The position numbers and the translations under genes were made by a program. From NCBI RefSeq assembly GCF_900459405.1, contig NZ_UHFN01000007.1:1922001-1986000 (forward strand): a stretch of DNA of 64,000 bases. The letters are read 5' to 3'. The notes below the pieces were generated by a model, which worked only from the letters and a program-made list of their open reading frames with translations, ran no database searches and was not told where the DNA came from. The DNA is from Streptococcus hyointestinalis (GTDB lineage: Bacteria; Bacillota; Bacilli; Lactobacillales; Streptococcaceae). Below, one piece after another: positions 4,244-28,991 of this stretch. The number at the start of each line of letters is the position of its first letter. Position 1 is the first letter of the stretch.

Positions 4244-4272
4244 ATTATATCCACTAAAGTATATGATGTCAA
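4244..4272 (-). promoter_or_regulatory. Consensus promoter of the membrane protein / TcaA-like / Hsp70 operon
   Basis: On the minus strand TTGACA (4267-4272) and TATAAT (4244-4249) are separated by exactly 17 bases. The start codon of the first gene lies about 64 bases downstream. The site sits directly after the terminator of the tiny-ORF array, so array and operon look like separate transcription units. Confidence 0.8.
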
Positions 4273-4290
4273 TATGATAATCAATTATTT

Positions 4291-4320
4291 TAAAAACCCA
4301 TAACCACGTCTGGTTATGGG
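4291..4320 (-). terminator. Rho-independent terminator of the tiny-ORF array
   Basis: A perfect 10-bp inverted repeat, CCCATAACCA / TGGTTATGGG, with a 4-base loop is followed on the minus strand by five T residues. It lies 36 bases after the stop of the last tiny ORF and before the next promoter. Confidence 0.85.
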
Positions 4321-4356
4321 CTAAAAAATATTATTGTCATATCATAAGGAGGGAAG

Positions 4357-4401
4357 TTAGTTATCACCATTTTTATAGCGTTTGATATTTAATTTCAGCA
4401 T
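4357..4401 (-). CDS. Tiny ORF 5 of the RYKNGD array (14 aa)
   Basis: ATG to TAA encodes MLKLNIKRYKNGDN. AAGGAG lies 9 bases before the ATG. The core is written CGC TAT AAA AAT GGT GAT. This is the last intact member of five in the same transcript. The peptide is short, hydrophilic and basic, with no signal peptide, cysteine or transmembrane segment. The family is not recognised. The case for translation is the ribosome-binding site plus the core shared with four other ORFs through different codons. Confidence 0.7.
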   Translation of the reverse strand: MLKLNIKRYKNGDN

Positions 4402-4511
4402 AAGATTAAGCTCCTTATTTTTCACAACTTCTAAGATAATGCTTACCTCTTACTCAAAAAGACATTATTCACATTAACAGCGACTGTTCCGTTATACTCT
4501 CTCGAACTGTC

Positions 4512-4553
4512 TTAATCTCCGTTTTTATACCTATTAAGTGTCATTTGTAACAT
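4512..4553 (-). CDS. Tiny ORF 4 of the RYKNGD array (13 aa)
   Basis: ATG to TAA encodes MLQMTLNRYKNGD, the shortest member; the peptide ends exactly at the conserved Asp, so no residue after it is needed. The core is written AGG TAT AAA AAC GGA GAT, with an Arg codon box used by no other copy. GCGAGGTGG precedes the ATG at normal spacing. Function is unknown. Confidence 0.7.
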   Translation of the reverse strand: MLQMTLNRYKNGD

Positions 4554-4600
4554 AAGCCACCTCGCTCCCATAACAAGATTAGCTAAAAACAACTGTCTTT

Positions 4601-4606
4601 TTACAT
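4601..4606 (-). other. Start-stop element (ATG TAA) behind a perfect Shine-Dalgarno
   Basis: Between tiny ORFs 3 and 4 a perfect AGGAGGTG is followed, six bases on, by ATG and directly by TAA. It occupies one slot of the array. It is either a dead copy that kept its ribosome-binding site or a minimal ORF that holds ribosomes. The sequence cannot decide between these. Confidence 0.4.
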
Positions 4607-4628
4607 TGGAGACACCTCCTAAGCTATT

Positions 4629-4679
4629 TTATGCGACTAGCCTTTTGTCTCCATTTTTATACCGTGATACATGTAACAT
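4629..4679 (-). CDS. Tiny ORF 3 of the RYKNGD array (16 aa)
   Basis: ATG to TAA encodes MLHVSRYKNGDKRLVA. The core is written CGG TAT AAA AAT GGA GAC. GATGGAGG lies just upstream and almost touches the TGA of tiny ORF 2 (15 bases separate stop and start), so translation of the two may be coupled. An in-frame ATG six bases earlier lies too close to the GGAGG to be preferred. Function is unknown. Confidence 0.7.
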   Translation of the reverse strand: MLHVSRYKNGDKRLVA

Positions 4680-4694
4680 AGCCATTCCTCCATC

Positions 4695-4754
4695 TCACTT
4701 TATAAACAGCGCCTTATCACCGTTGCGATAACGCCCTATGTTTAACATCAACAT
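4695..4754 (-). CDS. Tiny ORF 2 of the RYKNGD array (19 aa, RYRNGD variant)
   Basis: ATG to TGA encodes MLMLNIGRYRNGDKALFIK, the longest member and the only one with Arg for Lys in the core. The core is written CGT TAT CGC AAC GGT GAT, so four of its six codons differ from tiny ORF 1. AGGAGGTG, a full match to the 16S rRNA tail, lies 8 bases upstream. Function is unknown. Confidence 0.7.
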   Translation of the reverse strand: MLMLNIGRYRNGDKALFIK

Positions 4755-4784
4755 AAGTGTCACCTCCTATAAAGCAACATCCGC

Positions 4785-4814
4785 CTACCGATTCCTGAAC
4801 GACATCATTAACAT
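4785..4814 (-). pseudogene. Possible decayed array member (MLMMSFRNR)
   Basis: Between tiny ORFs 1 and 2 an ATG opens a nine-codon frame, MLMMSFRNR, ending in TAG. Its start (ML-M-M) and FRNR loosely resemble ML-M-L and YRNG of tiny ORF 2, and the bases after the stop (AGGCGG) resemble those after NGD in tiny ORF 2. It has no clear ribosome-binding site. The call rests on weak similarity. Confidence 0.22.
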
Positions 4815-4841
4815 TTTGTAAAGTCTCTCGTTTTGCCTACC

Positions 4842-4889
4842 TTAAATGGAATCACCATTTTTATACCGAGACTTGTTTTGATTCATCAT
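4842..4889 (-). CDS. Tiny ORF 1 of the RYKNGD array (15 aa)
   Basis: ATG to TAA encodes MMNQNKSRYKNGDSI, the first ORF of the transcript. AAGGAGG lies 8 bases before the first ATG. The core is written CGG TAT AAA AAT GGT GAT. In four of the five members the conserved Arg is residue 8, so position from the start codon is conserved as well as sequence. The promoter at 4931-4959 lies about 40 bases upstream. Function is unknown. Confidence 0.7.
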   Translation of the reverse strand: MMNQNKSRYKNGDSI

Positions 4890-4930
4890 AGAAGTTTCCT
4901 CCTTTGATTATCTTTATTTTTTATACTTTA

Positions 4931-4959
4931 ATTATAATGTAAGCGTTTCCTTTTGTCAA
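4931..4959 (-). promoter_or_regulatory. Consensus promoter of the tiny-ORF array with a cre-like site
   Basis: TTGACA (4954-4959) and TATAAT (4931-4936) with a 17-base spacer on the minus strand give a perfect sigma-A promoter. The spacer contains AGGAAACGCTTACA, matching 12 of 14 positions of the CcpA cre consensus TGWAANCGNTNWCA. Binding there would block polymerase, so carbon catabolite repression is predicted. Confidence 0.82.
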
Positions 4960-10583: not shown

Positions 10584-11994
10584 GGCTCTATAATATCTGT
10601 AGTGGGTAACGCCACCTCAGAGGTTATAGGGCTTTTTATCTGTATGAAAAAAGTCCCATAAGACTTATAATGAAAAGCGACTAAACCATCATTAGGAGGT
10701 ACTTATGGAACATATTAAGAATAGCACAAAACTCATTGGAATCAAAGACTTAAACATCAAAATATCAATTGTTCTCAAACATCAGACTCACATCGAGATA
10801 AGAGCCGAGCTGGATTATCCCGCTCCAGCCTGTCCTCATTGTCAAGGAAAGATGATCAAATACGATTTTCAAAGACCTGCCACCATCCCAATCTTAGACG
10901 TCCAAGGCATGGCAACTGTCCTAAAACTCAGAAAGCGGCGCTTTCAGTGTAAAGCGTGCCGTAGGGTTTCTGTCGCCAAAACTAGCCTGGTCAAGAAACA
11001 TTGCCAAATCTCACAGCCTGTCTGGGCGAAAATCACGCAGCTTCTCATCGAGAAACAGACCAATACAGACATCGCAAGACGCCTCCACGTCTCTGTTTCT
11101 ACCGTCCAGAGGCAGCTGAACGCTTTCACTTTTAAGGACAACTTTGAGACTTTACCAGAGGTCTTGAGCTGGGATGAATTCGCAAGAAACAAGGGGAAAC
11201 TAGCTTTCATTGCGCAAGATTTTAAGACCAAGAAAATCATTGCTCTTCTTGAAAACAATCGGCAAACAACCATCAAGAAGCATTTCTACAAGTATTCCAG
11301 GCAAGCCAGAGAAGCAGTCAAAATCGTGACTGTTGACATGTCTGGTGCCTACATTCCTATCATTGGGAAACTATTTCCAAAGGCTGAGATTGTTCTTGAC
11401 CGTTTCCACATTGCGCAGCACCTTAGTCGAGCCATGATGACCACTCGCATTGCCATCATGAAGGCATTTAACAAGACATCTCTTCCTTACAGAGCCATGA
11501 AAAATCACTGGAGAATCCTGCAAAAAGACAGCAGAAAACTCTCCGACAAGGCTTTCTACTCCAGAACCTTTCGACAAACTCTGACACCTAGAGAAATTGT
11601 CCAGAAAACCTTAGCTTTTTCGCCCGAACTCCGCTATTATTATGAACTTTACCAGCTACTGCTCTTTCATTTTCAAGAGAAGCGTGTCAAGGCTTTCTTT
11701 GGACTCATTCACGATAATTTGGGTACTGTCAACGCAAGTTTTTCAAGAGTTTTTCGGACTTTTCTAAAGCACGAGACTTATATCACCAACGCTCTGAAGC
11801 AACCTTATTCCAATGCCAAACTGGAAGCCACTAACAAGCTTATTAAAGACATCAAACGACAAGCGTTTGGCTTTCGTAACTTTAAGAACTTTAGAACCAA
11901 AATTCTCATCACTCTGAACATACAAAGAGAGAGAACGAAAATCGTTCTCTCTCGCACATAGCTTTTCATCACCCACTACAGTTGACAAAGAGCC
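10584..11994 (+). mobile_element. ISL3-family insertion sequence, copy 1 (intact)
   Basis: A 1411-bp element. The left end reads GGCTCTATAATATCTGTAG; the right end read inward is GGCTCTTTGTCAACTGTAG. An exact 8-bp direct repeat, TTTATTTC, flanks it at 10576-10583 and 11995-12002, the duplication size typical of ISL3. The duplication includes the stop codon of the acyltransferase gene on the minus strand, which stays intact. Confidence 0.95.
10705..11961 (+). CDS. ISL3-family transposase
   Basis: A 418-residue transposase: N-terminal zinc ribbon (CPHC at 43-46, CKAC at 82-85), helix-turn-helix near 115-138, then a DDE core with Asp in VTVDMSGAY near 211 and VLDRFHI near 232 and the C-terminal Glu in AKLEATNKLIK. 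It starts at ATG behind AGGAGGTACTT. The frame is intact, so the element could be active. The copy at 47402-51588 is broken. Confidence 0.93.
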   Translation: MEHIKNSTKLIGIKDLNIKISIVLKHQTHIEIRAELDYPAPACPHCQGKMIKYDFQRPATIPILDVQGMATVLKLRKRRFQCKACRRVSVAKTSLVKKHCQISQPVWAKITQLLIEKQTNTDIARRLHVSVSTVQRQLNAFTFKDNFETLPEVLSWDEFARNKGKLAFIAQDFKTKKIIALLENNRQTTIKKHFYKYSRQAREAVKIVTVDMSGAYIPIIGKLFPKAEIVLDRFHIAQHLSRAMMTTRIAIMKAFNKTSLPYRAMKNHWRILQKDSRKLSDKAFYSRTFRQTLTPREIVQKTLAFSPELRYYYELYQLLLFHFQEKRVKAFFGLIHDNLGTVNASFSRVFRTFLKHETYITNALKQPYSNAKLEATNKLIKDIKRQAFGFRNFKNFRTKILITLNIQRERTKIVLSRT

Positions 11995-28856: not shown

Positions 28857-28884
28857 TGAACTTTAACCAAGCTCATTGTATAAT
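28856..28884 (+). promoter_or_regulatory. Promoter of the yjdF riboswitch transcript
   Basis: TTGAAC (28856-28861) and TATAAT (28879-28884) with a 17-base spacer. The transcript would begin just before the riboswitch. Confidence 0.7.
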
Positions 28885-28889
28885 AAAGG

Positions 28890-28991
28890 TGATATAAAAA
28901 CACATTGCAGTTGGTAGTCTGCAAGCATCTTTGATGTCAGTAACCTTCCCTCCGGGTCGTCCATTATCCTTGATTTTTACTTGAGGAGGGG
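28890..28991 (+). ncRNA. yjdF riboswitch (azaaromatic-sensing RNA)
   Basis: A structured 5' leader directly before a YjdF-family gene, the hallmark setting of the yjdF motif RNA, which binds azaaromatic compounds. Visible pairings are TTGCA with TGCAA (28905-28924 region) and GCATC-TTT-GATGT. CCCTCC at 28948-28953 is complementary to GGAGGG at 28985-28990, the yjdF ribosome-binding site. This suggests control of translation by sequestering that site. Confidence 0.78.

Follow-up and report, generated by a model that had tools for sequence, protein, structure and literature searches.

Arrays of two to eight tandem micro-ORFs that share the core Arg-Tyr-(Lys/Arg)-Asn-Gly-Asp (RY[K/R]NGD) were present in at least 57 of the 284 Streptococcus genomes searched. 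Judging from codon differences between orthologous copies and from the pairing of RNA stems, the peptide is under selection and the RNA is selected as well, selection acting on both together. Their promoters contain sites resembling a catabolite operator, and the arrays are probably controlled by CcpA or a related LacI-family regulator. As to their mode of action, we lean, at somewhat less than even confidence, towards RY[K/R]NGD being a leader-type signal that acts in cis on its own ribosome, with hairpins following it.

Anatomy and distribution of the arrays

The array that led to this work lies in a stretch of 64,000 nucleotides of Streptococcus hyointestinalis DNA (henceforth the window). 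On its minus strand, between positions 4959 and 4292, a consensus promoter is followed by five RY[K/R]NGD micro-ORFs, each preceded by its own ribosome site, and then by a terminator. Direct reading agreed with the first-pass annotation on all these points. The sigma-70-type promoter (TTGACA-17-TATAAT, 4931..4959, minus strand), which it had called perfect, matches at 12 of 12 positions, and the intrinsic terminator (4292..4320, minus strand) has the claimed 10-bp stem (4320-4297), followed by five T, and folds with its flanks at -18.2 kcal/mol; the automatic terminator scan missed it, but stem and T run are visible by eye. The micro-ORFs, all read from the sequence of the minus strand, are 15, 19, 16, 13 and 14 codons long and encode MMNQNKSRYKNGDSI (ORF 1, 4842..4889), MLMLNIGRYRNGDKALFIK (ORF 2, 4695..4754), MLHVSRYKNGDKRLVA (ORF 3, 4629..4679), MLQMTLNRYKNGD (ORF 4, 4512..4553) and MLKLNIKRYKNGDN (ORF 5, 4357..4401). 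Four of the five start with ML, four have the core Arg as residue 8, and the Arg codons are CGG, CGT, CGG, AGG and CGC from ORF 1 to ORF 5, again as claimed.

Four features of the array had been overlooked: a cre-like operator, a start-stop ORF, a hairpin at ORF 3 and a conserved 3' element. The cre-like (CcpA-type) site, AGGAAACGCTTACA (4938..4951, minus strand), agrees at 8 of the 10 specified positions and lies inside the promoter spacer. In the predicted hairpin (4607..4653, minus strand; -15.7 kcal/mol, z -3.5) TGGAGACA, which contains the Gly-Asp codons of ORF 3, pairs with TGTCTCCA before the next ATG and encloses the conserved loop CGCATAAAATAGC together with the ribosome site AGGAGG. 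That site (4620-4615) belongs to the start-stop ORF, ATG TAA (4601..4606, minus strand), located behind ORF 3. Three non-coding elements recur among the array loci, namely the hairpin element, GTAGGCA (45 of 49 loci; in the window GTAGGCA...ACTTTAC, 4818..4840, minus strand) and [C/T]TCC-TTATGA (34 of 49 loci), the last being represented in the window by the anti-Shine-Dalgarno-like CCTCCTTATGA (4342..4352, minus strand) before the terminator.

All 57 array loci have a promoter that agrees with the consensus at 10 or more of 12 positions and, by reading, a terminator is visible behind seven of eight arrays, which supports the earlier view of the array as a transcription unit of its own; such a short transcript with its own promoter and terminator is also what is expected of a dual-function sRNA. 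In or beside the -35/-10 spacer, a cre-like site scoring at least 8/10, as expected in a promoter of the CcpA regulon, was matched by sequence in 54 of the 57 loci, against 8.6% of control windows, a contrast that is flattered by taking the best promoter candidate per locus and random control windows. The frequency of this site makes catabolite control likely. A strict 30-base promoter pattern allowing three mismatches occurred in 27 of the 284 genomes, once in each and every time at an array, and its reversed control gave no match in the 284 genomes.

In the genome of S. hyointestinalis (2.55 Mb), a degenerate 18-base core pattern gave seven matches, five of them in the array of the window, while the reversed control gave one. 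This control, the distribution of core matches and the codon statistics (see below) rule out chance or a repeat artefact as the origin of the array, and a homogenised DNA repeat is rejected because the copies differ in codons and flanks.

The core pattern was searched in all 284 genomes and again in 27 of them for coordinates. We fetched 49 loci with clustered core matches, the window included, and a search for mutY, with stretches upstream of it, added eight, giving 57 loci in 57 genomes; a 58th genome (G182), known from clustered core matches only, stands outside this count. The figure is a lower bound because the mutY region was read in only part of the genomes. Forty of the stretches upstream of mutY had been picked to fill gaps. 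They yielded eight arrays, one decayed array and one single micro-ORF away from mutY (L157); no such micro-ORF was present in 19 of the 40, two of these being short contig ends (L120 and L122). The array was absent from all 11 gap-filling loci read in genomes with a more distant MutY, which we take to be mitis-type. The decayed array (L126, genome G173) retains one recognisable RYKNGD and a degraded hairpin element. Named carriers of the micro-ORF cluster include S. agalactiae ATCC 13813, S. gallolyticus, S. equinus, S. ratti, S. ferus, S. ictaluri and S. henryi. Homologous arrays in relatives had been named by the first-pass annotation as a check on its own claim, and the 57 loci read provide them; its view that the copies are old is supported. 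Inside arrays of the S. equinus group (L050, L051, L053 and L087) there is a further conserved stretch, GGGCTTCTAATCATATTGCTTCC, outside the micro-ORFs.

Searches beyond the genus differed in reach. A nine-codon pattern had no match in viral contigs or in 348 genomes drawn across the phylum, but it recovers only 32 of the 57 array loci and misses the window itself, so that these absences are weak. A core-plus-stop pattern, which recovers 48 of the 57, revealed among 345 genomes of the order one clear micro-ORF outside Streptococcus (L167/L186). The sole match among 51 other Streptococcaceae (L115) sits in an open frame of 294 codons. Two other named records, from Erysipelotrichaceae (L077) and Lachnoanaerobaculum (L080), look like true single micro-ORFs. 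By reading, the match in Limosilactobacillus (L062) coincides with the ribosome site and the beginning of an overlapping gene and was set down to chance; that in L085 lies inside a frame of 90 codons, and in L081 the strict core expression gave no match.

Selection on the peptide and on the RNA

The consensus of the micro-peptides is M-L-x-[M/F/L]-N-[V/I/L]-[G/A/S]-R-Y-K-N-G-D, and no signal sequence was found in them. In a set of 203 cores, in which the core itself is fixed by the search expression and only the flanking residues are independent, an ATG with a ribosome site was present in 190, the Arg was residue 8 in 128, and the tail had 0-8 residues in 192. Outside the core, conservation is limited to an Asn at -3 and to a small or hydrophobic residue at each of -2 and -1, while N-terminal arms and tails vary. 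Variable arms and tails around a held core are the expectation for a signal acting close to the ribosomal tunnel; arrest leaders, likewise, conserve residues close to where the nascent chain ends and leave the N-terminal arm free. Directly behind the Asp codon stands an A or T in 97% of 199 units, against a background of 65%, and all 11 single copies have one there too.

A set free of this circularity comprised every micro-ORF of the 57 loci that starts with ATG behind a ribosome site and has three or more of the six core residues (n=214). All six residues were matched by 190 of them and five by 22, none matched four and two matched three; the exceptions counted include RYSNGD, RFKNGD, RYKDGD, HYKNGD and RYKSGD. 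The flanks alone then served to match up orthologous copies, one of the two units with three matches being left out. Across 1332 such pairs, which ignore kinship, the core codons show 2986 synonymous against 161 replacement differences. Codon positions 1, 2 and 3 of the core differ by 0.06, 0.02 and 0.39 in the main class (950 pairs), with 0.20 in the flanks, and the pattern is weak in the arms and absent in the tails. The excess of synonymous changes in aligned cores, another check set beforehand, indicates that the peptide is selected, and a coding ORF under selection is again in keeping with a dual-function sRNA.

The first-pass annotation had gone further and excluded the RNA as a target of selection. 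Its case for the peptide stood, but this exclusion was not supported, since conserved elements and covarying hairpins overlap the ORFs. We collected 35 copies of the hairpin including that of the window, 31 of them distinct. The element starts in the Gly-Asp codons of an RYKNGD ORF; its loop is UUGCANAAAAUAGC, and the next ribosome site lies inside it, an arrangement that recalls arrest leaders, in which a short ORF with a ribosome site precedes the regulated gene or site. It is followed by ATG TAA in 20 copies, GTG TAA in two and ATG plus a sense codon in 13. Seven folded copies had z values from -2.85 to -5.54. RNAalifold found no structure in an automatic alignment because the stem shifts register, and an arm-swap test took its place. 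Arms of the same copy paired with a mean of -10.07 in 31 of the 35 copies, compared with -7.40 (sd 0.38) for permuted arms, and with -10.00 compared with -7.27 (sd 0.38) when all 35 were used; in neither case did any of 2000 permutations, which ignore kinship, reach the observed value. Arms that pair better within than between copies indicate selection on the RNA as well. Of 34 scored copies, 16 form the outer pair, at the third base of the Gly codon, and 18 have a mismatch there. Downstream folding with z below -2 was seen in 33% of 212 array units and in 11% of controls. Rfam gave no match at gathering score in the array (the best chance match had 23 bits for a cut-off of 70) or in six further loci.

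Genomic neighbours and single copies

In all 21 large stretches compared, the array has mutY on its upstream side, directed away from it (in the window the mutY product has the Pfam domains HhH-GPD and NUDIX); in genomes G183 and G231 mutY is 5-9 kb off the array on the same contig. The downstream side varies, with no gene constant across the 21 stretches. An rpsF-type gene follows in 11 of them, close by and together with ssb in ten, and one such pair was confirmed by Pfam as ribosomal S6 and SSB. An association of the array with the adjacent envelope/Hsp70 operon, as proposed earlier, gained no support, mutY being the only constant neighbour; the DUF6574 and TcaA genes downstream in the window are not conserved beside other arrays, and a link to them was therefore rejected. 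A second 12/12 promoter with a 17-nt spacer (4244-4272, minus strand) stands directly behind the array terminator, before the DUF6574 gene, with the TcaA-domain gene next. Neither was a maturase or exporter constant beside the arrays in the 21 stretches (Pfam on selected proteins only).

Outside the mutY arrays, 11 loci carry one intact micro-ORF, and seven of them precede bacteriocin or secreted-peptide genes; the conserved downstream gene expected of an arrest leader is found only in these seven and not beside the arrays. Four (L163, L188, L221 and L226) encode MNYNN[P/S]HRYRNGD, with a lactococcin-972 match following in the same direction in all four genomes, although by reading that gene seems to lack its start in L163. 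L187 has MRYFNDSRYRNGD before a gene that reads as lactococcin-like and has its frame interrupted near the start. In L160 the micro-ORF is situated between a PhrA-like precursor (ending LDVGKAD) and Cys-rich precursors with a YcaO gene, an HTH regulator adjoining, and in L159 behind an RNPP_C regulator and a Phr-like precursor and before an unknown secreted peptide; the RNPP_C domain was matched in L159 only, not in L160. L186, from another family of the order, is beside what read as an ABC transporter, a response regulator and insertion elements. The remaining single copies are L077, L080 and L162 (genome G136), the last being a one-ORF remnant away from mutY with, by reading, the same kind of promoter and 3' element.

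Lactococcin-972 family matches occurred in 52 of 197 genomes. The RYKNGD leader was absent from all 30 best-scoring loci, which rules it out as a general leader of these genes. Fourteen further loci, seven chosen for an already known core and seven from weaker lactococcin-972 matches, had the leader intact in two, with its frame interrupted in nine and absent in three (one, three and three among the seven weaker matches). The nine loci with an interrupted frame (L219, L220, L222-L225, L228, L231 and L232) have the core interrupted in the same way; five of them lie before lactococcin-972 matches and one (L219) has a TprA-like regulator by reading. In the available part of one published study, tprA is linked to CcpA control (PMC6753895). 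Cre-like sites of 9/10 lie upstream of L187 (shuffle p 0.047) and of L019, which has an interrupted frame (p 0.037); those in L159, L160 and L162 do not exceed chance when compared with shuffles, and none above 7/10 was seen in L163, L188, L186, L077 and L080. When single-copy leaders were folded, the bacteriocin ribosome site was not clearly hidden.

Possible modes of action

The motif is short and close to the end of the chain, its arms and tails are free, hairpins start at it, and single copies precede bacteriocin genes. All this fits a leader-type signal in cis, the reading that we tentatively prefer; a ribosome-acting nascent peptide was among the roles listed by the first-pass annotation and keeps some support, whereas a regulator of the envelope/Hsp70 operon, also listed there, does not. 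The array would then be a stand-alone RNA, probably repressed by CcpA or its relative and, given the cre-like site, released once the preferred sugar runs out. With Arg-Tyr-Lys-Asn-Gly-Asp near the peptidyl-transferase centre, the ribosome would pause or stop at the Asp codon, and a hairpin beginning in the Gly-Asp codons or just past the ORF would open or close the next ribosome site or shield the RNA. Array copies, start-stop ORF and hairpins would thus form a chain of ribosome-occupied switches, and a single copy before bacteriocin genes might determine how strongly that mRNA is expressed or how stable it is. Of this picture, the anatomy, its conservation, the selection on the peptide, the covariation of the RNA and the cre-like promoters are observed; that the ORFs are translated, that ribosomes pause, which signal is sensed and what the output is are inferred. 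Against this reading stand the lack of a constant gene to regulate beside the arrays, the two thirds of array units without an unusual downstream fold, the mismatched outer Gly pairs (18 of 34), the folds of single-copy leaders, in which the bacteriocin ribosome site is not clearly hidden, the nine bacteriocin-type loci with an interrupted leader frame and the 30 best lactococcin-972 loci with no leader at all. That the arrays amount to a new class of regulatory RNA is a bolder proposal, which we regard as rather doubtful: identical nascent-peptide switches in series, two to eight RY[K/R]NGD arrest ORFs together with one start-stop ORF, would be produced upon sugar shortage and would park or gate ribosomes one after another, the same switch in single copy timing bacteriocin production.

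Alternatively, the micro-peptides could be set free and act in trans, in the manner of SR1P or SpfP from dual-function RNAs, their target being a shared intracellular protein or the ribosome and extra copies raising the dose; we consider this a serious possibility if not the expected outcome. The strong peptide-level selection, the several ribosome sites, the absence of a fixed downstream gene and a catabolite-type promoter like those of known metabolic dual-function RNAs would all suit such a peptide, and it fits the selection as well as a cis leader does. It does not fit the position-specific surroundings: across species, copies keep their own arm and RNA context by position, which dose alone would not need. 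Conservation extends over no more than six to nine residues, the length of either end varies, and single copies lie directly before bacteriocin genes, all of which also speak against it.

Could the peptides be by-products of a transcript that is mainly a base-pairing or ribosome-occupying regulatory RNA? The conserved GTAGGCA, the UUGCANAAAAUAGC hairpin, the start-stop ORF, CTCCTTATGA and the covariation of stem arms would agree with this, but codon position 3 varies freely under constraint on positions 1 and 2, other codons spell the same residues in single micro-ORFs elsewhere, and among the single copies these RNA elements were seen, by reading, in L162 only, making this unlikely. We consider it very unlikely that the peptides give rise to a modified peptide or a leaderless pheromone through maturation or export by an enzyme whose gene lies elsewhere, with the single copies near Phr-type signals and bacteriocins as other uses: L159 and L160 do lie between a Phr-like precursor and a bacteriocin-type gene, near an HTH-domain regulator, but both loci already own a signal in their Phr-like peptide, the ends of the micro-peptides vary, and the arrays have neither the signal or leader sequence nor the adjacent maturase or exporter of RiPP precursors and pheromones, only single copies being found in clusters of that kind.

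Hairpins that hide the next ribosome site are known from erm leaders. As an analogy only, the nearest solved counterpart of the array ORFs would be the streptococcal arrest leader ErmBL, which, according to the part of the publication available, has a hydrophobic MLVFQM start, depends on Arg7 and Val9-Lys11, stalls with Asp10 at the end and loses stalling upon Val9Ala (PMC4935803). Both are short leader ORFs that open with a hydrophobic ML, and in both a critical basic residue and an Asp at the end would lie close to the peptidyl-transferase centre; unlike ErmBL, the array has many tandem copies per RNA, no resistance gene downstream and no known ligand, and its arrest is only predicted. ErmBL needs Val9 where RY[K/R]NGD has Gly, so we claim no relation.

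SR1/SR1P of Bacillus and SgrS/SgrT and Spot 42/SpfP of Escherichia are dual-function RNAs of sugar metabolism with one ORF each. What the array shares with them is a small, structured transcript, a short coding sequence and probable catabolite-type control; it differs in having two to eight ORFs, mostly of 10-21 codons, with one six-residue motif. Neither the motif string nor a description of the array was found in the literature text searched, although it may have an entry in an sRNA table. So small a coding array is below the usual length limits of gene callers, which would explain why no description was found. Arrays and single copies before bacteriocin genes point to an undescribed control based on peptide and RNA, through which catabolite control may be linked to bacteriocin mRNAs by way of the RYKNGD micro-ORF; the array is also a clean test case for the joint evolution of ten-residue peptides and RNA structure, and the motif can be checked directly in ribosome-profiling data.

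Among bacteriocin loci, L160 resembles the pneumococcal TprA/PhrA loci, with one RYKNGD micro-ORF between the PhrA-like peptide and the peptide cluster, and the available parts of the two reports make no mention of such a micro-ORF (PMC6753895, PMC5436883); unlike those loci, the arrays are not beside such a regulator. Candidate pneumococcal sRNAs, some overlapping small ORFs and one predicted to target the CcpA regulon, are, like the array, streptococcal small RNAs, but the accessible portion of that work contains no tandem motif array (PMC12323649). It does tie srn266 to transposase transcripts in pneumococcus, and elsewhere in the window an Rfam Srn266 small RNA (10584-10693, minus strand) adjoins a gene at 10705 that reads as transposase-like. 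An azaaromatic (yjdF) riboswitch aptamer, with an Rfam match far over the cut-off, is located at 28884-28980 of the window (plus strand).
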